Source: Sphingomonas sp. LaA6.9
GTDB taxonomy: Bacteria; Pseudomonadota; Alphaproteobacteria; Sphingomonadales; Sphingomonadaceae
Direction of reading: 5' to 3'
Length of the DNA stretch: 37,194 nucleotides
NCBI RefSeq assembly: GCF_022601895.1
Contig: NZ_JAKVIO010000039.1
Coordinates: forward strand, 1-37,194
A program made the position numbers and the translations under genes. The notes beneath the pieces are model-generated. The model saw nothing but the letters and a program-made list of their open reading frames with translations. It ran no database searches and was not told where the DNA came from. This document shows, piece by piece, positions 4,323 to 16,348 of the stretch (position 1 is the first letter of the stretch; each line of letters begins with the position of its first letter).

Positions 4323-6743
4323 TCAGCGCGCGCCGAATGCGTAGCGCATGCTGAGTCCGAATTCTCTGGGCGGGGTCATCGAGGTGATGCCGACATAGGT
4401 GCTGGTGGCCGTCGCCCCTGCCGTCGTGCGGAAGGTGGGCGGCGTCAGTACCTGATAACCGGTGGTCTGGGGTGAGGACCGTGCCAGCGCCTTCTCCACG
4501 TTGAAGGCGTTTTTCACGAACAGCGAAATCTCCCATTGCCCTGCATGATCGCGCAGCCCCGTATAAAGGTTGAGCAGCCCGTAGCTGTCGACATTGTCGA
4601 AGCTGTTGGTCGGGTCAGCCTGTGAATTGCCGTAGAAACTGAACAGTCCGCGAAGATAGGCTTGGCTGATCGACGACAGGTCCATCCGGTATTCGGACTG
4701 CAGCGTAAAGCTGAACGGCGGCTGGAATGACGAGCGCTGCGTTGCCTGACAGGATGACAGGTTGTCCGACCCCACAGCCGCCTGTAACGCGGCGAGCGTC
4801 GGGGCCGTGCCAACGGGGTCGGGAACACCATCGCCGTTGAGATCGGTGCAAGGGATCAGGCCGTTCTTGATCTTGCCAAGCGAATAGCTGGCAACGGCGC
4901 CGATGTCCCAATTGTCCGATGCCGCATAACTGACATCGGCCTCGACCCCGTTCACCTTCACGGGAACCGCGGCGACGAAATTGAACTGGCTGACAGTGGG
5001 GGTGATGGTGACGACACCCCCCGTCACCGTTGCCGCGTAATTCACATAATAGACGCCCGTTGGCGAGCGATAGGGATAGTTCTCATAATCCTGATGATAA
5101 GCCGTGACGTTGAGGCGAAGCCGCTTGTCGAACAAGGTCGACTTGAAGCCGATTTCATAGGATTCCGACTTTTCCGGCGGCAGGTTCAGGAATGAATTTT
5201 CGAGTGCCGATTTCGCGACGCTGAAGTCGCCGACGACGTTGATGGGCGGACGCCACGAACTCCCCGTGGCCGCGTAAATCATCAGATCATCGCTGAAATT
5301 ATGCTTGATCGATGCGGTGTAGATGATCGTGTCCTCGTCCACCGTGGGATCCGGAGTGGCTCCCCGGTTGGCGATGTTGAGGCTGCCCTCGTTATGATAG
5401 TCGATGTAACGCAGGCCGCCGGAAATCTCGGTCCGATCGCCAATCTGTGCGGTGAGATTCCCGAAGAATGACTGCTCGTGCGACTTGCCCGTTCTTGCGA
5501 CGGGTGTCTGGGCGACCGTGACGATCCGACCTCCCAGAAACGGCGGCAGCGCGACCGGCGTTTCATTGACAAGATCACTTGGTGAGTTGGTCTTGTTGTC
5601 GAAAAAGCCCACCACATAGTCGAACAGGTCGAACAGCCGTTCCTCGTTCTGGATGCGGATTTCGTGCGACGTCGCCCTGGCGTGGGTTTCCAGCACCTGC
5701 CCGAACTCGAAATCGGGGAAGAAATTCGCCTGATCCTGTGGCGAGTAGGCGTTCAGATCGAGCGTATAGTGCTGGCCGACATAGATCAGCCGCTGTCCGG
5801 CAAGTGCCAGCTGCGCCTGCCAGTTGTAGACGTCCATCTCCTGATGAACCGAACGTGGCGCATCGAGAATCGACAGGCGGTCCTTCGCACGAATGAGGAC
5901 CGGGCTGGGAGCGGCGGCCGGATTGGTGAGGCTGAACGATTCAACCTGGTCATAGGCCCGCAGCACCTTGTCCATCTTCTGATAGCTGCCCTCCAGCGAC
6001 AGGGCATCGAATGGCTCGATCTTTGCGGATATGCGGCCGCCCTTTGTGCGCTGATAAGGATCGCGCCGGTCGATACCGCCATTGATCGTTCTGACGCGAT
6101 CGACGTCATTTTCGTCCCACACGCCTGCGACGCGAATTGCGGCGACGCCTTCGATGATCGGGATGCCGAAGCCGCCATTCAGGTTGATGGTGCCGATATC
6201 GTTGCCGGTGGCGCTGACATAGCCGCCGATGTCGAAAAGGTCGGGCTTGCGCGTCGTCACGGTGATCGAACCCGAGGGCGCGGCGCGCCCACGCAACGTA
6301 CCCTGCGGCCCACGCAGCACCTCGACCTGCCCGATGTCGTACATGGCCTGCAGCACAAGCCCGGCCTGGATGGGTGCGTCGTTCTGGTAGAACTCGACCG
6401 TCGGGTTGAATCCGCTTGCATTGACGTCGAAATTGACGCCGCGGAGCGACGCATTTCCGCCCGTACCGTTGGAGACGTTGCTCAGGCTGAGGCCCGGAAC
6501 GAGATTCTGCACGTCATTGAAGTTGCGCAGGTTCAGCTTCTCGATGTCCTCTCCGGTCACCGCATTGACCACCAGCGGTACGTCCTGCGCACTCTCATCC
6601 CTGCGGCGCGCGGTGACGATGATGTCGTTGGAGGCGGCTTCATTCCCGGCCATCGCCGATGAACTGGCATCCTGAGCAAGAGCCGGAATCGAAAATGACG
6701 AAGCGCCGACACATAAAAATGAAAGAAAATATCTTTTATTCAT
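4323..6743 (-). CDS. TonB-dependent outer-membrane receptor
   Basis: This 806-residue precursor takes up a large or scarce substrate across the outer membrane using energy from TonB-ExbBD. A signal peptide (MNKRYFLSFLCVGASS... ending at ALAQ) precedes a TonB box-like NDIIVTARRR. The plug domain follows at about residues 45-150, with the motif GPQGTLRGRAAPSGS, a variant of the usual GRNATGG. The rest is beta-barrel, ending in aromatic-rich strands (MRYAFGAR). The start at 6743 gives the signal peptide and has GAGGGG upstream; 17 extra residues from an earlier in-frame start are rejected. The type is common in sphingomonads and its ligand cannot be read. Its own promoter and terminator suggest a single-gene unit beside the redox operon. 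Confidence 0.93.
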   Translation of the reverse strand: MNKRYFLSFLCVGASSFSIPALAQDASSSAMAGNEAASNDIIVTARRRDESAQDVPLVVNAVTGEDIEKLNLRNFNDVQNLVPGLSLSNVSNGTGGNASLRGVNFDVNASGFNPTVEFYQNDAPIQAGLVLQAMYDIGQVEVLRGPQGTLRGRAAPSGSITVTTRKPDLFDIGGYVSATGNDIGTINLNGGFGIPIIEGVAAIRVAGVWDENDVDRVRTINGGIDRRDPYQRTKGGRISAKIEPFDALSLEGSYQKMDKVLRAYDQVESFSLTNPAAAPSPVLIRAKDRLSILDAPRSVHQEMDVYNWQAQLALAGQRLIYVGQHYTLDLNAYSPQDQANFFPDFEFGQVLETHARATSHEIRIQNEERLFDLFDYVVGFFDNKTNSPSDLVNETPVALPPFLGGRIVTVAQTPVARTGKSHEQSFFGNLTAQIGDRTEISGGLRYIDYHNEGSLNIANRGATPDPTVDEDTIIYTASIKHNFSDDLMIYAATGSSWRPPINVVGDFSVAKSALENSFLNLPPEKSESYEIGFKSTLFDKRLRLNVTAYHQDYENYPYRSPTGVYYVNYAATVTGGVVTITPTVSQFNFVAAVPVKVNGVEADVSYAASDNWDIGAVASYSLGKIKNGLIPCTDLNGDGVPDPVGTAPTLAALQAAVGSDNLSSCQATQRSSFQPPFSFTLQSEYRMDLSSISQAYLRGLFSFYGNSQADPTNSFDNVDSYGLLNLYTGLRDHAGQWEISLFVKNAFNVEKALARSSPQTTGYQVLTPPTFRTTAGATATSTYVGITSMTPPREFGLSMRYAFGAR

Positions 6744-6943
6744 GCCACATTTCCCCTCTCGTTTATAATTATAATGTGATTTAAAGCCGTTCATCGATCA
6801 GCGAAATCATGACAAAAGATCATCGCTAACTGTGTTACGTGCGAGCAATCTCAAATTTTATTGTGAGTTAAGCTGAAATCGACTAATAATGGTCGCAAAC
6901 TACTGCATTGCCGGACCCTTTTCGCCAGGGCTGGCGGGTGGAT
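6744..6943 (-). promoter_or_regulatory. AT-rich promoter region of the TonB-dependent receptor
   Basis: This 200-bp gap is much richer in A+T than its surroundings. On the minus strand a perfect TATAAT (6773 down to 6768) lies 24 bases before the receptor start, leaving a short leader that contains GAGGGG. I see no convincing -35 hexamer at 17 bp, so the promoter may depend on an activator. The right end (6923-6936) holds a small CGCCA/TGGCG hairpin after the DUF1552 stop, without a T tail. Confidence 0.4.
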
Positions 6944-8284
6944 TCAAACGAGCAATTCCCTGATCGCCTTGTTCGTCTCCAGGCTTTCGGTGCCCCAACG
7001 GTCGACCGACACGCCCATGACCTGCTGCAAGGTCAGACCCACACGGCTGACGGGGGTTCCTTCGCCCGCAATGTGCAGCCCGGTGCGGATGCGACCGCCG
7101 CCCGAGCCCGCGGTCATCATCGGGATGTTGTCGACGGTGTGGAACTTGGCGAACTCGGTCTCGCTGTGCGCAAAGACCAGACTGTTGTCGAGCAGCGTGC
7201 GGTCGCCCTCCTTCACCGAGTCCAGCGCCTTGATGAAATAGACCCAGGCTTCCATGCACTTGTTGACGAAGAAGGTCGCCTCCGGCTGGTAGCCGAGGCG
7301 GTTGTCGAGCACCTCCTCATGGGTCAGCTGGTGGTGCGTGATCGTGCTGCCGATCCGCGTGAGCGACGATGCGCCATTGTTGAAATTCATGTTGAAGACG
7401 CGCGTATTGTCGCAGGCCATTGCCATGACGAGGAGGTCCGCCATGATCTCGTGGTTGCGCATCACATTCTCGATCTCGGCATTGACGGGCAGTTCGGGCA
7501 CCTTGCCCGGCACGACGCAGCCCTGCATCGGTTCGGGTTTGGTGAGCTGGACGTCGAGCTGCTTTTCGAGCTGGCGGAGCGAAGTGAAATACTGGTCGAG
7601 CCTTTGCTTGTCGGCCGCCCCCAGCCGCGTTTCGATCGCCTGACGTTGCTCGGTGACGCCCGAAAGCACGCTGCGGCGCGCCAGCACCGCGGGGTCCGGC
7701 GTGAAGTTCGCGCTGTTGGGATCTCGAAAACCGGGGCCGAAGAGCCGCGTGTAGAGCGCAGCGGGCGAGACTTCGGCGGGATTGAGATTGCCGTTGCCGC
7801 GCCCCGAAAGCGAGTTGCGCGGATCGCCAGTTGCCGAAATCTCGAGCGAGCGGAAGCGCGTGCGCGTGCCGATGACATCGCCGATCGCGACGTCGAAAGA
7901 GGTTCCGGGAAGGCCGCGATCGGCGGCGATCGCCATGCCCGTGCGGATGCCGATGCCACCGCTGATGTGCGGCAGGTTGGGCTTGCCGTCGAGCGGCAGG
8001 GTGAAGTCGCCGAGGATGTTGACCTTGTGCCTGAGCGGCTCGATCGCAGCGAGCTCCTCCTTGAGATCATAGTCGGCGCCGATCTTGTTGGGGAACCATC
8101 GCGGCGGGTTGACGCCGAGACCCCAGAACCAGGTGCCGAAACGGACGGGCACCGGCGCCCCCGTTGCGGCCATCGCCTCGCCGTTGACGTCGAGGAAGAT
8201 GTCGAGAAGCGGCAGGCCGATGGCGACCGCCATTCCGTTGACGGCACCCCTGAGCGCGGTCCTGCGATCGAGCGTGAAGGTCAT
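6944..8284 (-). CDS. DUF1552 family protein, Tat-exported
   Basis: The 446-residue protein matches the DUF1552 family (sequence features WFWGLGVNPPRWFP, HQLTHEEV and SETEFA), known mostly from planctomycetes and myxobacteria, where it commonly sits beside DUF1592 proteins. A twin-arginine signal is visible: DRRTALRG at residues 6-13, then a hydrophobic stretch. It should therefore be folded, perhaps with a cofactor, before export to the periplasm. The family has no demonstrated reaction known to me. Its start codon overlaps the stop of the upstream DUF1592 gene (ATGA at 8281-8284), which implies translational coupling and a shared role. It is the last gene of the eight-gene operon. Confidence 0.9.
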   Translation of the reverse strand: MTFTLDRRTALRGAVNGMAVAIGLPLLDIFLDVNGEAMAATGAPVPVRFGTWFWGLGVNPPRWFPNKIGADYDLKEELAAIEPLRHKVNILGDFTLPLDGKPNLPHISGGIGIRTGMAIAADRGLPGTSFDVAIGDVIGTRTRFRSLEISATGDPRNSLSGRGNGNLNPAEVSPAALYTRLFGPGFRDPNSANFTPDPAVLARRSVLSGVTEQRQAIETRLGAADKQRLDQYFTSLRQLEKQLDVQLTKPEPMQGCVVPGKVPELPVNAEIENVMRNHEIMADLLVMAMACDNTRVFNMNFNNGASSLTRIGSTITHHQLTHEEVLDNRLGYQPEATFFVNKCMEAWVYFIKALDSVKEGDRTLLDNSLVFAHSETEFAKFHTVDNIPMMTAGSGGGRIRTGLHIAGEGTPVSRVGLTLQQVMGVSVDRWGTESLETNKAIRELLV

Positions 8285-9996
8285 GGTTTTGCTCCCGTCT
8301 TGCTACGGTGGGGGGACATCATTGCGATCGTTGTGCTGCCGATCGGGCCGGACATGATCCGATAGGCTTCGGGCATGGTCGCGACGCGCAGGAACAGCGC
8401 CTGGATACGATAGCCGTCGGCGGCGAAGCCCTGTTCGATCGTGCCGGCGAGTGCGCCCTCGTCTTCGGGCACGCGTCCGGTGGCATATTCGAAGGCCCGA
8501 CCCGCCACGCATTCGGTGGTGGACTTGCTCGCGGCCATCGCCTTGCCGAGGCCGGAATTGCCCTGGAACTCGGTGCCCTCGAACACGCCGCCAGTATCGA
8601 TCACGGCGCCATTCTCTCTCGCGCGCGCCGCGCCGATGCCGTCGAAGCGTTCAAGGGGAAGACCAAGCGGGTCGGTTATCTTGTGACAGGCAGCGCAAAC
8701 AGGATCGGTGTTGTGCGCATTCAGCCGCATCCGTGCGGTGGGCATTGCCTTGCTGTGGACGTCCTGGACGGCGGTGAAGTTCACATTGCCGGGGGGATTG
8801 GGAACCGGCTGGCAGAGCAGCAGCTCACGGATCGCGCGCCCGCGCAGCGTCGGGGAGCTGCGTCCCGAATGCGAATAGAGCGCAAGGAATCCCGCCTGAC
8901 CGAGCAGGCCGGCGCGATCGTCATCGGCGTCCAGCTCAAGCGGTACCCAGCCCTGCGACGCGCTGACCTTGGTCTGGTAAAGCGGCCCCAGCGCACGGTT
9001 GATGAATGTCTTGCGCGTGGTGAACAGGTCGCGATAGTCGCCCTGTCGTGTCACCAGATGATCGACCACCGTGCGCAGCATCTGTTCTGGCATCGCGGCC
9101 GCGACGTCGGCGTTGAAGCGCGGATAGACGACCTGATCCTTCGCCATCTCCTCGAACTTTTCGAACAGCAGCATGTCCGCGAAAAAGGCGCGGACCCCTT
9201 CCTCCAGTCGCGGCGAGTGCACCATGCGTTCGGCGATCGCGGCAAGTCCGGCCTGATCGGCAAGGCGGCCCTCTGCGGCCGTTTGGAGCAGCGCCTCATT
9301 GGGTGTCGTGTTCCACAGCAGGAAGCTCAGCCGCGCGGCGCGCGAATAATTGTCGAGCCGAAAACTGCCCGGACTTGTCGGATCGGGTTCGGAGCTTTCG
9401 ATGACGTAAAGGAAATTGGGCGAGACGAGCATGGCGGCGAGCGCGAGCTCAAGCCCCTTGTGGAACGAGCCGGCGGGGGCAACAGCATCGCCCGCCATCT
9501 TCACATAGCCCGCGACCTCGCATTCAGTGAGGGGGCGGCGGAACAGGTAGCGCCCAATCGGGACGAGCACCCGGGCGGCACAATCGGGATCGGGCGCGGC
9601 CGCGTCGCGCGGGGTGCACGCCATGAATTGCGCGCGATTGTCCTCCGCAAAAACCTGCGCGGCGATGTTGCGCGCCATGGAATCGAATTGCTCGAGACCG
9701 GCAGGCGAGATCGTGGAGGCTGCCGCGCCCGTCGCGATCAGCTCATGGACGGGACGCACGATCGGCTCGAAGCGGCCGGCGACCTTGATGTCCGGACCGA
9801 AGATGTCCGCGATGCTGTTGCGATACTGCGCCTCGGTCAGCCGGCGCATCGCGACGATCTGATTGAGCGGATCCCTGAGCGCTCCGAGCGAGGGCTCGGC
9901 AGCTGCGCCTTGCGGGGTGCGCTCGGCGGTACAGGCGGCCAGCGCGAACGGGATGAGCAACGCGCAGCGCGCGCGTCTGAAGCGTGCGAGAGTCAT
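8281..9996 (-). CDS. DUF1592/DUF1588/DUF1585 lipoprotein with a c-type haem site
   Basis: The 571-residue protein has a lipobox (LAAC, Cys22), so it is probably anchored in a membrane and faces the periplasm. RRLTEAQYRNSIADIFG (51-67) resembles DUF1587. DUF1592 spans about residues 145-370. DUF1588 starts near SPTLRGRAIRELLLCQPVP and contains CAACH (434-438), a CxxCH haem c attachment motif. A DUF1585-like C-terminus (ATGR, residues 505-508) follows. This domain order is that of the planctomycete cytochrome-like proteins whose function is unproven. The gene overlaps both neighbours by four bases (ATGA at 9993-9996 and 8281-8284). Haem attachment is inferred from the motif only. Confidence 0.9.
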   Translation of the reverse strand: MTLARFRRARCALLIPFALAACTAERTPQGAAAEPSLGALRDPLNQIVAMRRLTEAQYRNSIADIFGPDIKVAGRFEPIVRPVHELIATGAAASTISPAGLEQFDSMARNIAAQVFAEDNRAQFMACTPRDAAAPDPDCAARVLVPIGRYLFRRPLTECEVAGYVKMAGDAVAPAGSFHKGLELALAAMLVSPNFLYVIESSEPDPTSPGSFRLDNYSRAARLSFLLWNTTPNEALLQTAAEGRLADQAGLAAIAERMVHSPRLEEGVRAFFADMLLFEKFEEMAKDQVVYPRFNADVAAAMPEQMLRTVVDHLVTRQGDYRDLFTTRKTFINRALGPLYQTKVSASQGWVPLELDADDDRAGLLGQAGFLALYSHSGRSSPTLRGRAIRELLLCQPVPNPPGNVNFTAVQDVHSKAMPTARMRLNAHNTDPVCAACHKITDPLGLPLERFDGIGAARARENGAVIDTGGVFEGTEFQGNSGLGKAMAASKSTTECVAGRAFEYATGRVPEDEGALAGTIEQGFAADGYRIQALFLRVATMPEAYRIMSGPIGSTTIAMMSPHRSKTGAKP

Positions 9997-11195
9997 TTGT
10001 GCGCCACCTTCGCTTCGGGCAGCCGGTCATTGACGAAGGCGGGCACCGCCGTCGCCTCCAGTCCGCTGGAAATCGTCGTGCACTGGCCGGTGCGCGGATC
10101 GCGGTCGCCATCGGCCAACTTGCGGAGCGCCGCGTACATCGCCGCGCAGTCATAGCCCGCGGTCGTCGCCGCGCCTTCGCCACCGATCGAGGCGCTGGCC
10201 ATCACATTCCAGAAAGGCTGATAGCCGCCGACCAGCCCCTTGAGCGTCCCGTCGGGCTGGAAGGCGAGGCGAAGCCGGCCGCGCCGCAGATCCCATTCGG
10301 TGCGCATGCCCCTTATGTCGCGCGCCGATCCCTGTCCCCAGGTCTGCCGCAGACGGATATCGGCGGGGTCCGTCATCAGCACGCCGTCCACGATCCGGCC
10401 GCGCAGCACGTTGCGATGCCGGGCATTTTCGGTGACGGTATAGCTGGCGCCATCGACGAACTTCTGGCCCGAATCCACGATCGCGCGATCCTCGCTATTG
10501 GCATAGATCACCTCGACATCGGGATCGTCGGCCAGGCTGTCGACGCCGCGCAGCAGAAGCACCTGCGTATGCTCGCCGCTCACCAGGAACTGGTCGAGGC
10601 CGCGGACGATATCTCCGCCCATGCCGTCGACCCCGCGCCAGGTGCGCACGCAGCCCATGGCGCGCCACATCTGATTGTCGATCCCAGCTTCGCCCGCGGG
10701 GCTGGTGAAATTGTCATGCGCGCAGCCTTCCGCGCTCGCGCCGCTATTGCCCGTGTCGTCATCGAGGTTCAGCCCATGCGCCACCTTGCCCTGCACCGTG
10801 CGCTGCGGCGGGCGATCGAACTTGTCGGGATGCGAGCAGATGTTGAGGCCGTCGGGGCCGAATGCGGTGAGCTGCCATCTGCCGGTCAGCTCCTTCTCAT
10901 TCGCCTTTTCGAGCAACCGCGAGCGTTCGGGGGGCGCGACCGTCTGCAGGTAATTTTCGCGCAGCGTACCGGCGAGACCTTCCGGACAATCCCCTTCGCC
11001 CTGATGAACGGCGGGAGCAAAATGGGTGACGATGAACCCCATTTCGCCATTGGCGGGCGGTGCGGGCAAGGCCGGAGCGGCGGCGCGCGCCGGCGTCTCC
11101 AGTTCGCTGCCGCCCGATCCCATCATCAGCGCGACGGCCGCTACCGGGAACGCGACAAGCGCGATTGCCCAATGCTGTTTCCTTCGCCGTTGCAT
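9993..11195 (-). CDS. Secreted protein of unknown function, part of the redox operon
   Basis: I do not recognise this 400-residue protein. It starts with a basic stretch and a hydrophobic segment (QRRRKQHWAIALVAFPVAAV), so it is exported or anchored once in the inner membrane. An Ala/Pro-rich linker to about residue 55 follows. The globular part has several cysteines (in GDCPEG, NICSHP, EGCAHDNF, MGCVRTW, YDCAAM, GQCTTI), which suggests disulphides in the periplasm. There is no CxxCH. ATG 11195 is chosen over a longer open frame that runs into the next gene; AAAGGA lies upstream. It overlaps the DUF1592 gene by four bases, which ties it to that protein, perhaps as a subunit. Confidence 0.8.
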   Translation of the reverse strand: MQRRRKQHWAIALVAFPVAAVALMMGSGGSELETPARAAAPALPAPPANGEMGFIVTHFAPAVHQGEGDCPEGLAGTLRENYLQTVAPPERSRLLEKANEKELTGRWQLTAFGPDGLNICSHPDKFDRPPQRTVQGKVAHGLNLDDDTGNSGASAEGCAHDNFTSPAGEAGIDNQMWRAMGCVRTWRGVDGMGGDIVRGLDQFLVSGEHTQVLLLRGVDSLADDPDVEVIYANSEDRAIVDSGQKFVDGASYTVTENARHRNVLRGRIVDGVLMTDPADIRLRQTWGQGSARDIRGMRTEWDLRRGRLRLAFQPDGTLKGLVGGYQPFWNVMASASIGGEGAATTAGYDCAAMYAALRKLADGDRDPRTGQCTTISSGLEATAVPAFVNDRLPEAKVAHK

Positions 11196-11251
11196 CTCGT
11201 GCCATCCTTTCAGTTTCGGTCGCCGCTCCGGCGCTGTTCTGCGGTGGTGCC

Positions 11252-12061
11252 TCAGGGATTGAGCAAGACGCCCCCGGCCGGGATATCGGCGGGGTTGCTG
11301 CCCTTGATCTGGTAGACGGGCTTGCCGCGATAGACCCATTGCGCGTGATCCTCGCCCTGCTTCACCGCCCATTCGCCTGTGCCGCGGCGCGCCATTCCCG
11401 ACGCGAAGACCTGCCACCCCGCGCATGCGTCCACGCAGGTCTTCGCCCTGGGGCTGAAGAGCAGGTTGCCCCGCGTATCGGCGAGCACATAGGCCCCGTC
11501 GAGAAGACGCGCCTCGACATTGGGGGGGGCGCTGAGCTCGGGTGCCGGGGGCACATATTTCAGCGTGTTCCAAGTATAGCCGTCATCGCCGTCATGCGCG
11601 ACCGAGCCCGGCCGGTCACCCTTGCGCGTGAAGACCAAGTGGACGCCCTTATAGACCCACTGCGGCCCGCCGGGGCCCTGGACCGCTGCCCAGTCGCCCG
11701 CGTCCTTGTCTGGCGCATCGCTTGCTTCAGGCTTGCGGCGGCCGCCGAACATTGCGGGAATTTCCATCGACGGCGATCCGGCGGGGGCAAGCAGCGGCTC
11801 CCATTGATCGCGGCACGCGTCCGAGCAGAAGGCGAAGGGCCGGCCCGTGCGTCCGGAAACCGCGCGGACATCCATGCCGTAAAGCGTCAGGCCACGGCGA
11901 TCCACATAGACCTTGCCGCCCTCCACACGCTTGACTGACACACCTTCCGGGAAGCGATCCGACGCGGCCGCGGGAATATCCATATCCGATGCCTGTGCCA
12001 GAAGTTCGCCGGGCAGCGTGGCCACAGCGATCGCCAGCAGACAGGTTTGCAAAGCCTTCAC
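11252..12061 (-). CDS. Secreted COG4315/Lipoprotein_15-like repeat protein
   Basis: The 269-residue protein has a cleavable signal (KALQTCLLAIAVATLPGELLAQ). It contains at least two copies of the small repeat seen in COG4315 proteins: a 'name/value' strand pair (TLYGMD; NLLFSP), a Cys-x3-Cys-x2-Trp segment (CSDACRDQW; CVDACAGW), and a WVYKG/WVYRGKPVY strand. The first Cys segment also resembles a YHS metal site. The start is a GTG (12061) set by AAAGGAGG seven bases before it; the upstream frame overlaps the cytochrome c' gene. Such proteins are found next to cytochromes, but their biochemical role is unclear. It lies 16 bp after cytochrome c' and 56 bp before the 400-aa protein. Confidence 0.8.
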   Translation of the reverse strand: MKALQTCLLAIAVATLPGELLAQASDMDIPAAASDRFPEGVSVKRVEGGKVYVDRRGLTLYGMDVRAVSGRTGRPFAFCSDACRDQWEPLLAPAGSPSMEIPAMFGGRRKPEASDAPDKDAGDWAAVQGPGGPQWVYKGVHLVFTRKGDRPGSVAHDGDDGYTWNTLKYVPPAPELSAPPNVEARLLDGAYVLADTRGNLLFSPRAKTCVDACAGWQVFASGMARRGTGEWAVKQGEDHAQWVYRGKPVYQIKGSNPADIPAGGVLLNP

Positions 12062-12067
12062 CGCGCG

Positions 12068-12075
12068 CCTCCTTT
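12068..12075 (-). promoter_or_regulatory. Strong ribosome-binding site that fixes a GTG start
   Basis: The minus strand reads AAAGGAGG, six bases before GTG 12061 of the COG4315-like gene. It shows that translation begins at the GTG and not at any upstream ATG. Confidence 0.8.
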
Positions 12076-12077
12076 GC

Positions 12078-12542
12078 TCAGGGTTCGACACGGAAACTGC
12101 GGTGACAGGTGGTGCAGCTCTGCCCCAGCGCCTTGGCCTGTGCGCGCATCTTCGCGACATCGCCGCTGCCCGCGACGGTGGCGAAGGCGTTGGCCTGTTT
12201 CGCAAAGCCGTCCTGCGCGGCCTTGAATGCTGCTGCCTGCGTCCAGATTTCGGGCTTGGCTGCGGTCTTCACCCCCGGCTTCGGCCCGCTGCCAGCGGGA
12301 AACCAGCCATAATGCTGGCGCGCATAGTCCCTGATCTGGCGCGCCGAAATCTGGATGACATAGGTCTGGGGCGAGCCCGATCGCAGTTCGTCGTTGATGT
12401 TCTTGAACGCGGCACCGACTTCGCGAAATCCGGCAATGCGCGTCGCCACGATATTGGCTGGCGCGGCGAGCAAGGGCACCCCCACCCCGCACGCCATGGC
12501 GAGCGCGGCCGCAGTCCAACCTGTTATACTTCTCGCAACCAT
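12078..12542 (-). CDS. Cytochrome c' family protein
   Basis: The 154-residue precursor has a signal peptide (to about LLAAPA, residue 28), a predicted four-helix body and a single haem site, CTTCH (143-147), very near the C-terminus, followed by RSFRVEP. This layout is typical of class II cytochromes c (cytochrome c'), where the haem iron is usually five-coordinate with the CxxCH histidine as its only protein ligand. Known members carry electrons or bind NO/CO in the periplasm. Here it is sandwiched between a cytochrome b561 and the secreted redox proteins, so it could receive electrons from the pathway or from b561. Confidence 0.9.
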   Translation of the reverse strand: MVARSITGWTAAALAMACGVGVPLLAAPANIVATRIAGFREVGAAFKNINDELRSGSPQTYVIQISARQIRDYARQHYGWFPAGSGPKPGVKTAAKPEIWTQAAAFKAAQDGFAKQANAFATVAGSGDVAKMRAQAKALGQSCTTCHRSFRVEP

Positions 12543-12591
12543 TCCCGAACTTTCCTCTTTGCTTGTCCTGTCCGTTTTCGATCGCGCCGCC

Positions 12592-13266
12592 CTAGAAATA
12601 CGGCTCCGCGAAGACCCACCAGGAAATGGCGCCCGACAGCATCAGGGCGCACAACAGCTGGACGACACCCGCGCGGCGAACGGTGACGGGTGTGTGGGCT
12701 CCGGGCGGCTTCCTGCGGCCCGTGACCATTGCACCGACCAGATTCTGCCGCCTTACGATCAGGTGGAAGATGATCGCGACGATGTGCAGCAGGATCAGCG
12801 CGATCAATATGTTGAAGCTGATGTCGTGGACCGCCGAGGCGAGGCGCCCCTGATCGAAATCGACGAGATAGGAGAGGGGGCCGGACTCGATCCCGTCCAC
12901 ATCGACCGCGAACAGTCCGGTCACGACCTGCGCGCCGAGCGCAAGCAGCATCGCGACGACGCTCCATCCGCCGAGCGGATTATGGCCGACGTCCGAGGCC
13001 GGGCCATATTCGCCCCGGCTACGGACATAGGTCCAGATCGCGCGCGGGCCCTTGATGAAATGACGAAAACGCGCGGTGTCGGAGCCGATGGCGCCCCACA
13101 GCAGCCGGAAGAGCAGGAGGAAGAGCACGGCCTGTCCCGACAGACGATGCCAGTCCATCTGGTGGTTCTCGGCGCTCCACCACGAAAAGGCCAGCAGCGC
13201 GACCAGCGACCAGTGGAAAATGCGGATCGGGACATCCCAGACATATTGGTGGTGGGCATCGGACAT
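12592..13266 (-). CDS. Cytochrome b561-type membrane haem b protein
   Basis: The 224-residue protein has four to five hydrophobic helices (about residues 17-32, 44-60, 101-120, 146-171 and 199-220). Histidines lie where b-type haem ligands are expected in the bacterial b561/NiFe-hydrogenase-cytochrome-b group: His18 (FHW), His40, His147, His161 and His168. Such proteins pass electrons between the quinone pool and periplasmic carriers. It is five bases downstream of the HiPIP gene and next to cytochrome c', which makes it the likely membrane junction of the electron route encoded here. The direction of electron flow cannot be told from sequence. Confidence 0.9.
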   Translation of the reverse strand: MSDAHHQYVWDVPIRIFHWSLVALLAFSWWSAENHQMDWHRLSGQAVLFLLLFRLLWGAIGSDTARFRHFIKGPRAIWTYVRSRGEYGPASDVGHNPLGGWSVVAMLLALGAQVVTGLFAVDVDGIESGPLSYLVDFDQGRLASAVHDISFNILIALILLHIVAIIFHLIVRRQNLVGAMVTGRRKPPGAHTPVTVRRAGVVQLLCALMLSGAISWWVFAEPYF

Positions 13267-13271
13267 CGCGA

Positions 13272-13622
13272 TCAGCCCTTTGCCGCCCAGGAATCGCAGA
13301 CCCCGTCAGCGGGCACGATGCCGCCGCTCAGCAGCGCGCACTTGCCACAGCCGGTGCCCGCGGCAGTGAAGAAGGCGCAGGCGCTGCACTTCTTCTTTGG
13401 ATCGGCCGAGGGAAGCCTGAAGCCCAGTGACTTGCGCATGCTCTTCTGCGCGGCGGAGAGCGTGTCCTGATTGACGCATGCCTGCGCGCGCGCCGCCTCG
13501 GTGACCATCGCCAGGCCCAACGGCGCACAGGCGAACAGCGCAAGCAGCGTCCGGCGCGAATGTCCCCGGTCCGATGCTGGCAAAGCTGCGTTTCCGCCGA
13601 CGGATTGCTGATGGTCTGTCAT
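13272..13622 (-). CDS. High-potential iron-sulphur protein (HiPIP), Tat-exported
   Basis: The 116-residue precursor has a twin-arginine motif (SRRTLLALF, residues 22-30), then a mature part with the HiPIP cysteine pattern: Cys79 and Cys82 (CSACAFF), Cys95 (GCGKC), and Cys109 (GVCDSW). These four should hold one [4Fe-4S] cluster that cycles between +2 and +3 at high potential. An extra Cys92 is present, and the usual aromatic before the last Cys is a Val. HiPIPs carry electrons in the periplasm. The gene lies five bases after the small secreted protein gene and five before b561, clearly one transcript. Confidence 0.93.
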   Translation of the reverse strand: MTDHQQSVGGNAALPASDRGHSRRTLLALFACAPLGLAMVTEAARAQACVNQDTLSAAQKSMRKSLGFRLPSADPKKKCSACAFFTAAGTGCGKCALLSGGIVPADGVCDSWAAKG

Positions 13623-13627
13623 GCTGA

Positions 13628-13936
13628 TTACTTGACCGGCACTTTCGCAAGCTCGACGTCGATCTTTGCGAGCACCTCATCGCTGAGCTCCTGGGGCGCA
13701 TAGCCCTGCAGCGCCTTGAGCGGCATTGGGGCTACTGCGTCGATCTGCGAGCTGGACGTGATCCGCGGCGCGTGTTTCGCGATGATCGCGCGCGCCGCAG
13801 GATTGGCGAGCAGTTCGCCGATCGGCGTCTCGGCGGTCGAATATCTTGCGGCCTGTTGCTGCGACGGGGTTTGCTGAGCCACCGCTGGCCCCGCGAAGCA
13901 GGCCGTCAAAATTGCTGCGAAAACGAGCGCGCGCAT
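13628..13936 (-). CDS. Small secreted protein, first gene of the redox operon
   Basis: This 102-residue protein starts at ATG 13936, with GGGAG six bases upstream; a longer frame through the intergenic region is rejected. A signal peptide (MRALVFAAILTACFAGPAVAQ) leaves a mature chain of about 80 residues. The motif ETPIGELLANPAARAIIAKHAP followed by ALQGYAP and a C-terminal LAKIDVELAKVP resembles a short helical module that I recall at the ends of secreted sphingomonad hydrolases, but I cannot name a family. There are no cysteines in the mature part, so it is not itself a cofactor protein of the usual types. Confidence 0.75.
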   Translation of the reverse strand: MRALVFAAILTACFAGPAVAQQTPSQQQAARYSTAETPIGELLANPAARAIIAKHAPRITSSSQIDAVAPMPLKALQGYAPQELSDEVLAKIDVELAKVPVK

Positions 13937-14161
13937 ATCGTCTCCCAAGGATCTGTGATGATCGGGTGAGAGCGGTGCCGCGCTGCCCGATGCTGTTATT
14001 GGCTCGAGGCAAAATCTAGCAGCTAAGTGCCGGATTCGTTTGTCTCCCCCGACAAGAATCCACCGTCTTTGACGGAGCGCCGGAAAGGCCGGTAATCGGG
14101 GAAGAAAGCCCAGATACGTTCGTCGATATCGCGCGCCGGAGTGGCGATACCGGGTCGATTG

Positions 14162-14175
14162 TGTCAGCACTGACA
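14162..14175. promoter_or_regulatory. Candidate operator palindrome TGTCAG-CA-CTGACA
   Basis: A perfect 6-bp inverted repeat around CA, 85 bp before the response-regulator start. It may bind the encoded regulator or a third factor; this is inference from position and symmetry. Confidence 0.35.
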
Positions 14176-14190
14176 AAGACGGACAAACCA

Positions 14191-14217
14191 GCGCCATCAA
14201 AATGGCTATCATGGCGC
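14191..14217. promoter_or_regulatory. Inverted repeat GCGCCAT-N13-ATGGCGC before the response regulator
   Basis: Perfect 7-bp arms, 30 bp before the response-regulator start. Arm 14191-14197 can also pair with ATGGC at 14202-14206, so two alternative hairpins exist in the probable leader. It could be an operator or a translation-affecting RNA structure. Confidence 0.35.
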
Positions 14218-14246
14218 AATGGAGAGAGGCACTTGCGAGCTGAGCG

Positions 14247-14993
14247 ATGCAGATGAACGTCACGCTGAACGCTGACGAGCAGGAGCCCGGCCAGCTCAGC
14301 ATTCTGGTTGTCGACGACGATCCTTCATTGAGGTCGCTCGTGCGCGATTTTCTCGTTGCACAGGGCTATGCGGTGCACGAGGCCGAGGATGGCCCGTCGA
14401 TGCGCCGGGTCATGGCACAGTCGGAGGTTCACATCGTCATCCTCGATGTGATGATGCCGGGCGAGGATGGCCTGTCCATTGCCCGCTCGCTGGCGCAGCA
14501 GGGCGATGTGGGGGTCATCATGGTTTCCGCGCTCGGCAGCGAGACCGACCGGATCATCGGCCTGGAAGTGGGCGCCGACGACTATTTGCCGAAACCGATA
14601 TCGCCGCGCGAACTACTCGCGCGAATTCGTGCGCTGCAGCGGCGGCGGCGGCCTTCGTCGGGCGCGCAGTCGGGCACCGCCCAATTCTGCTTCGAAGGCT
14701 GGCGGCTGGACCCGATCCGGCGCGTGCTGCGCGATCCCGGCGGGGTGATCATCAGCCTGTCCGAGGGCGAGTTCGGACTGCTGCTCACGCTGGTGGAGCG
14801 ACCCCAAAGGGTGCTCAGTCGTGACCAGCTTCTCGAACTGTCGCGAGGCCAGGATTCGGAGGCGTTCGACCGGGCGATCGACACGCAGGTCAGCCGCTTG
14901 CGGCGCAAGCTTGCGACGCGCATGCGGGGCGAGATCATCCGCACGATCCGCAGCGAAGGCTATATGTTCCTGCCACCGGTGACGCGCGGATGA
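14247..14993 (+). CDS. OmpR-family response regulator
   Basis: The 248-residue protein has a receiver domain at about residues 17-130 and a winged-helix DNA-binding domain at about 145-245. The phosphorylated Asp67 (ILDVMMPGEDG), acidic residues in VVDDDP, a Ser in VSAL and Lys116 (LPKPISP) are all present. It should bind direct repeats in promoter DNA when phosphorylated by the kinase encoded next; the two genes overlap by four bases (ATGA 14990-14993). A second ATG six bases downstream (14253) is an alternative start. It is divergent from the eight-gene redox operon, so regulation of that operon is the simplest proposal. Confidence 0.93.
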   Translation: MQMNVTLNADEQEPGQLSILVVDDDPSLRSLVRDFLVAQGYAVHEAEDGPSMRRVMAQSEVHIVILDVMMPGEDGLSIARSLAQQGDVGVIMVSALGSETDRIIGLEVGADDYLPKPISPRELLARIRALQRRRRPSSGAQSGTAQFCFEGWRLDPIRRVLRDPGGVIISLSEGEFGLLLTLVERPQRVLSRDQLLELSRGQDSEAFDRAIDTQVSRLRRKLATRMRGEIIRTIRSEGYMFLPPVTRG

Positions 14994-16348
14994 CGGGCCG
15001 GGCGGGCGGGTGGCTCGAGCGCACGCTGCTGTGGATGAACTCGATCCAGGTATATATCCTGGCGCTCGTCCTTGGTGCGATCGTGGTGCTTACCGCACTG
15101 AGCCTGTCCATCATGTCTTACGTGACGCCGGAAGTTGGCGCGCCGGTTTCGGTCTATGAGATGTCGCGCATGGTTCGGGGGCAGCCGCTGGCGCAGGACA
15201 TGTCTTCGATCCGTTCGCGAACCCAGGTCGCCGAGCCGCGGCCATCGGACGATAATGCCGAAAGGCTGATCGCCGCCGCACTGGCGCGTCGGCTCGGCGT
15301 GTCTGGCGGTGACGTTCGCGTCTATCTCAACGATGGGGATCGCGCTCGTCACGACCTGATAGCGCGCGAGATGGCATTATATGGCGGGGAAGGCGCCGCC
15401 GATCCGGTCGTGCTGGGCAGTTTCACCATCGCGGTCAGAACATCGCCGGGGCAGTGGCGGACGATCACGCGCGAGGCGCGCAATCCCGATACTCTCTGGC
15501 AGCATATCGGCCGCAATTCGGTCCCGATCGGGTTGCTCGTGATCCTTCCCCTGAGCTTGTGGGTCAGCGCGCTGCTGACGCGTCCCATCCGCGCCTTCGC
15601 CGCTTCGGCCGAAAGGCTTGGCGCGGGGATCGAGGAAAGCCCGGTGCGGGTGGAGGGGCCGACCGAAATCCGCATGGCAGCGCGTTCGCTCAATGAGATG
15701 CAGTCGCGCATCGCGCGCTACATCCGCGAGCGGACCTCGGTGGTCGGCGCGATTGCCCATGATCTTCGGACGCCGTTGTCGCGGCTCCACTTCCATCTCG
15801 CCTCGGCACCGGAGCATGTGCGAAAGGCGGCGGAGGAGGAAATCCGACAGATGGAACAACTCATCGGTACCACGCTCGATTTCGTCGACAATGAAAGCCG
15901 GCCGCGGGTGATGGAGCCATTGGACCTCGGCTTGCTGGTCGAAGGACTGGCCGACGACTTTGCCGACATGGGCAAGGACGTCGCCATCGCCGATGCCCAA
16001 CCGGTCACGATCGCGGGCGACGTGATCCTGCTCAAGCGGCTGTTCACCAACCTCATCGACAATGCCGTGAAATATGGCGGTAGCGCCAGAATTTCGGTGC
16101 GACGCGAGGGCCCGACCGCGATCGTCGAGGTCGCGGATAATGGCCCCGGCATGACAGACGCACAGATCGCGCGCGCGTTCGAACCCTTTTTTCGCGGAGA
16201 ACCCTCACGCAATCCCAGGACGGGCGGCGTGGGGCTCGGCCTGTCGATCGTGCAGTCCGCGACCGAGGCTCATGGCGGGTCGGTCACGCTGCAACAGCGG
16301 GCGGGTGGCGGCCTGAGCGCTCGGGTTGCGTTGCCGCTTTCGGATTGA
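14990..16348 (+). CDS. EnvZ-type sensor histidine kinase
   Basis: The 452-residue kinase has transmembrane helices at about residues 21-43 and 178-196. They flank a periplasmic sensor of roughly 130 residues with no recognised fold. A HAMP linker (about 197-250) precedes the dimerisation/phosphotransfer helix with His257 (IAHDLRTPLSR). The ATPase domain has N-box NLIDNAVKYGG, G1 VADNGPGM, F-box EPFFRGE and G2 GGVGLGLSI. It phosphorylates the coupled response regulator. A periplasmic sensor fits a pathway whose components are exported. It ends 12 bp from the convergent hydrolase gene. Confidence 0.93.
   Translation: MTGRAGGWLERTLLWMNSIQVYILALVLGAIVVLTALSLSIMSYVTPEVGAPVSVYEMSRMVRGQPLAQDMSSIRSRTQVAEPRPSDDNAERLIAAALARRLGVSGGDVRVYLNDGDRARHDLIAREMALYGGEGAADPVVLGSFTIAVRTSPGQWRTITREARNPDTLWQHIGRNSVPIGLLVILPLSLWVSALLTRPIRAFAASAERLGAGIEESPVRVEGPTEIRMAARSLNEMQSRIARYIRERTSVVGAIAHDLRTPLSRLHFHLASAPEHVRKAAEEEIRQMEQLIGTTLDFVDNESRPRVMEPLDLGLLVEGLADDFADMGKDVAIADAQPVTIAGDVILLKRLFTNLIDNAVKYGGSARISVRREGPTAIVEVADNGPGMTDAQIARAFEPFFRGEPSRNPRTGGVGLGLSIVQSATEAHGGSVTLQQRAGGGLSARVALPLSD

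Follow-up and report, generated by a model that had tools for sequence, protein, structure and literature searches.

An eight-gene operon of Sphingomonas sp. LaA6.9 with a recurrent P400, DUF1592 and DUF1552 core and optional electron carriers

The operon and its eight products

The window, that is, the whole stretch of 37,194 nucleotides analysed here (Sphingomonas sp. LaA6.9, contig NZ_JAKVIO010000039.1), contains at positions 6944-13936 eight open reading frames (ORFs), all on the minus strand, which an earlier note made from the letters alone had described as an exported redox operon built around DUF1592 and DUF1552. From 5′ to 3′ they encode a protein of 102 amino acids (aa), a high-potential iron-sulfur protein (HiPIP), a cytochrome b561, a cytochrome c′, the protein P283, a 400-aa protein (P400), a DUF1592 protein and a DUF1552 protein. 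The gaps between them are, in the same order, 5, 5, 49, 16, 56, -4 and -4 bases, and both negative ones are ATGA overlaps, so that the gene order and the overlaps are those the note had given.

13628..13936, minus strand: exported protein of 102 aa that opens the operon, without a family assignment
13272..13622, minus strand: HiPIP-like [4Fe-4S] protein with a twin-arginine signal (PF01355, 1.4e-6, 28.9 bits against a cut-off of 22)
12592..13266, minus strand: membrane cytochrome b561 (PF01292, 2.3e-22)
12078..12542, minus strand: cytochrome c′, exported (PF01322, 1.8e-24)
11252..12061, minus strand: P283, exported, diverged PF03640 relative (269 aa from the GTG at 12061, 283 aa from 12103)
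9993..11195, minus strand: P400, exported, 400 aa, family undescribed
8281..9996, minus strand: DUF1592 protein with one c-haem motif and, in the window copy, a lipobox (DUF1587-1595-1592-1588-1585)
6944..8284, minus strand: DUF1552 (HXXSHH) protein with a twin-arginine signal (Pfam, 3.3e-51)

No Pfam or NCBIfam match above the curated cut-offs was obtained for P400, P283 or the ~102-aa product, and the CxxCH motif occurs in only two of the eight products, once in the DUF1592 protein and once in cytochrome c′. Judged by eye, without a signal-peptide program, the window proteins bear the export signals previously assigned to them: DUF1552 and HiPIP have twin arginines, DUF1592 has a lipobox, and four others have Sec-type signals. 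Among their relatives (regular-expression tests) the twin-arginine motif is constant, being found in 74/74 DUF1552 proteins and 25/25 HiPIPs, but the lipobox appears in just 28 of 74 DUF1592 proteins and is therefore not general. A terminator scan of positions 6700-14400 gave no excess (4 found, against 4.8 expected from shuffled sequences).

Recurrence of the core and of its carriers

A profile search of the genome collection with P400 yielded 183 relatives, the best 80 loci of which were used for neighbourhood counts, with neighbour families detected by three-round profiles. DUF1592 was found at 70 of these loci, DUF1552 at 73, P283 at 51, cytochrome c′ at 34, HiPIP at 25 and b561 at 15, part of the 80 ending at contig ends. 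Stricter counts come from the 57 loci in which 6 kb or more of sequence lies to either side of P400; there, on the same strand and within 6 kb, DUF1592 is present in 54 and DUF1552 in 55, followed by P283 or PF03640-type proteins (36), cytochrome c′ (29), HiPIP (20) and b561 (13). The nucleus of the module is thus formed by three genes, P400, DUF1592 and DUF1552, and the tie between the 400-aa protein and its two neighbours, proposed earlier from the overlaps, extends well beyond this strain. Over 59 loci the distances within P400, DUF1592 and DUF1552 vary together: their matrices correlate at r 0.91-0.93, whereas 500 permutations gave no more than 0.24. This result fits joint inheritance, although it is not separable from plain common descent.

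Of the loci mapped, that of one other species, Sphingomonas cavernae (L054 = L032), shows the complete eight-gene order, which the note had proposed to look for elsewhere; five further loci (L056-L060) show it except for the 102-aa gene. In three loci (L092, L093, L100) the whole P400-DUF1592-DUF1552-P283 unit is duplicated in tandem, with the P400 copies 6-8 kb apart, and two others contain rows of several P400 and P283 copies, with DUF1592 not detected there and DUF1552 either absent (L118) or at the end of the stretch (L124). The P400 of S. herbicidovorans (L051, 13539-14884) is annotated as two overlapping ORFs and looks frame-broken, and that of L038 is seen as a fragment only.

According to the record titles of the 80 loci, P400 is carried by Sphingomonas, Sphingobium, Novosphingobium, Rhodospirillales, Hyphomonas, Halieaceae, Steroidobacter, Vicinamibacteria and Myxococcales; many of these records are metagenome-assembled genomes (MAGs), and the label Marinimicrobia on some of them may stem from faulty binning. 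The module and its recurrent partners span Alpha- and Gammaproteobacteria, Vicinamibacteria and Myxococcales; a lack of co-occurrence outside this strain, which the note had named as refuting its reading, is thus not what was found. P400 also occurs in thirteen plasmid records, all but one from Sphingobium. Within the window's own order (396 genomes, at most 3-4 candidate places scored in each) the module is rare: P400 occurs in eight genomes, in one of them (G319) as a fragment only, and DUF1592 in 23. If a DUF1592 is counted as close at E < 1e-100, a threshold chosen once the gap had been seen, the eight genomes that have one are exactly the eight with P400, the other 15 lying at 2e-69 and up. 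These 15 hold a second, weakly similar DUF1592 group, 13 of the 15 as open frames of more than 800 aa, with no P400 match.

At least one of cytochrome c′, HiPIP and b561 lies within 6 kb, on either strand, in 31 of the 57 full-flank loci, and the three are recurrent yet optional partners of the core. They are placed before it, after it or on both sides, varying by locus, which indicates repeated association and not one inherited order. Their enrichment was measured in 24 P400-bearing genomes, hand-picked and mostly isolates, including the window's own, with the figures taken from the other 23: 9 of 13 HiPIP genes stand at a P400 locus, where 0.05 would be expected at random, and 22 of 55 cytochrome c′ genes, where 0.24 would be expected. 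Genes for c′ and HiPIP were also seen side by side away from the P400 loci found (G437:C1:221163-221802 and G417:C146:10614-11763); these pairs could perhaps be a separate c′-HiPIP unit or further copies of the module.

Protein families and conserved motifs

P400 is, as far as its sequences indicate, a family without described relatives, since 0/65 members match Pfam at E 0.01, in agreement with the earlier description of it as unrecognised. Its AlphaFold2 (AF2) model (pLDDT 88.1) has no PDB or viral fold match at E 0.001; weak matches to the PknI sensor, PsbO and streptavidin were set aside. No histidine is conserved in at least 88% of 106 aligned P400 sequences. When PDB sequences were searched with each core protein and with profiles of all three, no convincing match came up; the only candidates, both weak and rejected, were Aca1 for DUF1552 alone (E 0.71-0.88) and CheY for the P400 profile (E 0.3-1).

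The DUF1592 protein matches Pfam DUF1592 at 6.3e-30, together with DUF1588, 1595, 1585 and 1587, all five over the cut-off, and so has the PSD3-PSD5-PSD4-PSCyt3-PSD2 domain set; its C434, C437 and H438 are invariant in 87 aligned sequences, from which motif a single c-type haem is predicted. The other cofactor motifs are equally constant. In cytochrome c′ the triad C143-C146-H147 is kept in 47/47 aligned, and in b561 the histidines 18, 40, 95, 147 and 161 in 22/22. The HiPIP match is weak, yet it exceeds the PF01355 cut-off, and in 33/33 aligned members the twin arginine and cysteines 49, 79, 82, 92, 95 and 109 are conserved. HiPIPs need four cysteines, which we take to be C79, C82, C95 and C109 in this family, C49 and C92 being additional.

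For DUF1552 the AF2 model (pLDDT 86.9) gave 22 PDB matches at E 0.001 or better in Foldseek, most of them sulfatases and the best a steroid sulfatase (1p49, 2.6e-6), with TM scores of 0.41 or lower. An alkaline-phosphatase/sulfatase-type fold, and not a redox fold, is thus predicted, which makes DUF1552 an unlikely electron carrier. H106, D225, H318, H322, E324, D366 and H382 are conserved, and the canonical nucleophile of that superfamily was not evident by eye. The P283 of the window matches no Pfam family over the cut-off, PF03640 included; because two of three homologues do match PF03640 (L079 at 4.7e-38 and L122 at 3.1e-26, but not L075), it can be placed by sequence as a diverged relative of these secreted repeats, not as a member by cut-off.

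With these results, the claim of one functional exported unit equipped with c-type, b-type and Fe-S carriers is supported by co-occurrence and by conserved motifs. The combination with HiPIP, b561 and c′, which the note believed to be undescribed, does recur and is neither unique to this genome nor obligatory; no paper describing it was found in the open-licence text of PubMed Central. The note's complete electron route, leading from an oxidation in the periplasm to the membrane, is a reading and not a result.

Surroundings and possible function

Besides a peptidase and unrelated enzymes, the neighbours of the operon are a TonB receptor and a two-component pair:

4323..6794, minus strand: TonB-dependent receptor, downstream of the operon after a 149-base gap (domain match)
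14247..14993, plus strand: OmpR-type response regulator, divergent, next to the operon
14990..16348, plus strand: sensor histidine kinase, partner of the response regulator, next to the operon

The closest relatives of the receptor (58-59%) adjoin the module in two Novosphingobium loci (L048, L064), and the regulator (67-84%) and the kinase (64-86%) are conserved beside it in L054-L060. In the bile-salt degrader Chol11 the run P400-DUF1592-DUF1552-c′-b561 stands between glycosidases with a TonB receptor, on one side, and a cluster of side-chain type, on the other, made up of acyl-CoA dehydrogenases, an amidase, a Rieske oxygenase, an amidohydrolase and a CoA ligase. By a count of neighbours, the five module genes would be about Nov2c212-216. 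By annotation and gene order, the cluster of side-chain type would be the published Scd4AB/Bsa/Nov2c228/SclA side-chain cluster, whose gene names are given in Table 1 of PMC8399759. One of the Chol11 glycosidases is a GH106 over the Pfam cut-off, and the GH3 label of its neighbour derives from NCBIfam matches below the cut-off. The same arrangement is found on a plasmid of Sphingobium sp. TomMM7A, whose glycosidases resemble the saponin glycosidases of RC1 solely in the order of their families; TomMM7A may be tied by its name to the tomatine-soil isolates of PMC10653915, the main text of which names no TomMM7A. In S. herbicidovorans, HsaC- and HsaA-like genes, below curated cut-offs, follow the module. 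GH106-type genes were found at the P400 locus in seven loci (7/38 of the GH106 genes of 25 genomes, fragments merged), two of them in Halioglobus MAGs, two in Parahaliea, two in other gammaproteobacterial MAGs and one in an alphaproteobacterial MAG; five are partial, divergent matches (1e-25 to 1e-31) and two are full-length. An eighth (L120) lies inside its P400 locus by coordinates only.

Taken together, the core co-occurrence, the matched distance matrices, the carrier enrichment, the conserved haem, b-haem and Fe-S ligands, and the glycosidase, TonB and side-chain surroundings in Chol11 and TomMM7A, with GH106 at seven loci, lead us to favour, tentatively and with a little less than an even chance of being right, a conserved oxidation system on the periplasmic or outer-membrane side, with exchangeable carriers and a substrate that differs between hosts. 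Its working unit would be P400, DUF1592 and DUF1552, possibly as a complex and often joined by the PF03640-type protein. A TonB-dependent receptor would import a bulky compound into the periplasm, where P400 and DUF1552, the latter exported in folded form by the twin-arginine route and having an alkaline-phosphatase-like fold with conserved His, Asp and Glu, would bind and process it; the single c-haem of DUF1592 would take electrons from the oxidation step and pass them to cytochrome c′ and HiPIP, which cytochrome b561 would link with the quinone pool. In Sphingobium and Chol11 the neighbouring genes suggest a saponin or steroid substrate.

Several observations weigh against this account. In 26 of the 57 loci none of HiPIP, c′ and b561 was detected within 6 kb, hence the electron route described above does not hold everywhere; a TonB receptor like that of the window lies within 6 kb in only 9/57; and, besides the haem and a possible metal site in DUF1552, no catalytic cofactor is evident. 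In S. cavernae, which has the same operon, the sole Pfam-matched gene of the far flanks is an aconitase, which does not point to a catabolic island. The steroid test, made with the single marker protein HsaA (E 1e-60) on the 396 genomes of the order, was positive in 42 genomes overall but in only two of the eight with the module, the best match in the window genome being of 24%; with six of the eight lacking the marker, a steroid link as a general rule was rejected.

These last results apply also to the proposal that the module is a dedicated steroid or sapogenin system, for example a missing part of side-chain degradation in Sphingomonadaceae, which we hold to be improbable. Its proximity to the side-chain-type genes of Chol11 and to the HsaC- and HsaA-like genes of S. 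herbicidovorans speaks for such a role, as does the fact that the side-chain route is termed largely unknown in the available part of PMC12175502. However, Caenibius tardaugens degrades bile salts with a side-chain cluster that, in the available part of PMC12882949, names none of the module genes, so the module seems not to be needed for that pathway, the C. tardaugens genome itself not having been searched for P400. The module is, moreover, exported. CoA-dependent steps, on the other hand, are cytoplasmic. Less probable still would be a protection against redox or nitric oxide (NO) stress, in which c′ binds NO, as cytochromes c′ do, the remainder buffers oxidants and the adjoining two-component system senses the stress; this would accord with the presence of c′ in 34/80 loci and with the regulator and kinase beside the module in L054-L060, but in many loci P400, DUF1592 and DUF1552 occur without a detected c′, and the TonB receptors, glycosidases and short-chain dehydrogenase/reductase (SDR) genes around the module suggest catabolism.

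The electrons could also run in the opposite direction, from quinol through b561 and c′ or HiPIP to the DUF1592 haem, and feed an oxygen-using reaction, as proposed for Cbp2D of Cellvibrio japonicus; we judge this unlikely. In the available part of PMC8981238, Cbp2D has DUF1587 and c-type haem domains with a proposed role in electron transfer, and its X183 cytochrome donates in vitro, if slowly, to two lytic polysaccharide monooxygenases (LPMOs); a protein joining CBM2 and DUF1592 is listed, too, in the part available of a lignocellulose study (PMC6004670). Nevertheless, Cbp2D and Cbp2E are large modular proteins tied to cellulose and LPMOs, and a scan of the operon and of ten recurrent neighbour families gave no LPMO or cellulose-binding domain, LPMOs not having been sought elsewhere in the genome. 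We know of no DUF1552 or P400 partner for Cbp2D or Cbp2E, the C. japonicus genome not having been searched. Rieske oxygenases, which are cytoplasmic, would hardly serve as recipients, and a cluster with one stands at just 8/80 loci; the lack in P400 of a histidine conserved at the level given above counts against this reading as well.

If we return to the oxidation system, a bolder version of it, and one that we think rather doubtful, would make of P400, DUF1592 and DUF1552, with or without the PF03640-type protein, an unrecognised, mobile, multi-phylum periplasmic enzyme system. In it a metal-dependent DUF1552 of alkaline-phosphatase fold and the haem protein DUF1592 would act together to oxidise polycyclic compounds of plant or steroid type, and HiPIP, c′ and b561 would provide the link to the quinone pool. 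Were this true, the periplasm would do what soluble cytoplasmic dehydrogenases and oxygenases usually do. DUF1592 and DUF1552 belong to a large, well-known and functionally blank protein set, and the compact proteobacterial form described here, with a fixed third partner, identifiable carriers and a tractable strain in Chol11, makes their reaction testable, as well as being a concrete candidate in the saponin and steroid islands of sphingobia.

In Verrucomicrobia, PSCyt2/PSCyt3 genes usually adjoin one of two unknown gene families, are often near sulfatases, and some carry carbohydrate-binding modules (CBMs), according to the available part of PMC5615132. The planctomycete-type PSCyt/PSD cytochromes of Verrucomicrobia and Planctomycetes share the PSCyt3-PSD domain types with the module, whereas the latter is proteobacterial, adds P400, the PF03640-type protein and HiPIP, c′ or b561, and has in the window a DUF1592 copy without PSCyt1/2 or CBM domains. 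The two gene families of the verrucomicrobial loci are presumably DUF1501 and DUF1552; no paper naming both DUF1552 and DUF1592 was found in open-licence PubMed Central text.

The first gene of the operon follows a distribution of its own. In a search of 88 loci, its 102-aa product had a homologue at the corresponding position (68%) only in S. cavernae. TomMM7A and Chol11 also have a homologue, adjoining their glycosidase genes (L050, 6565-6852, and the same place in L134).

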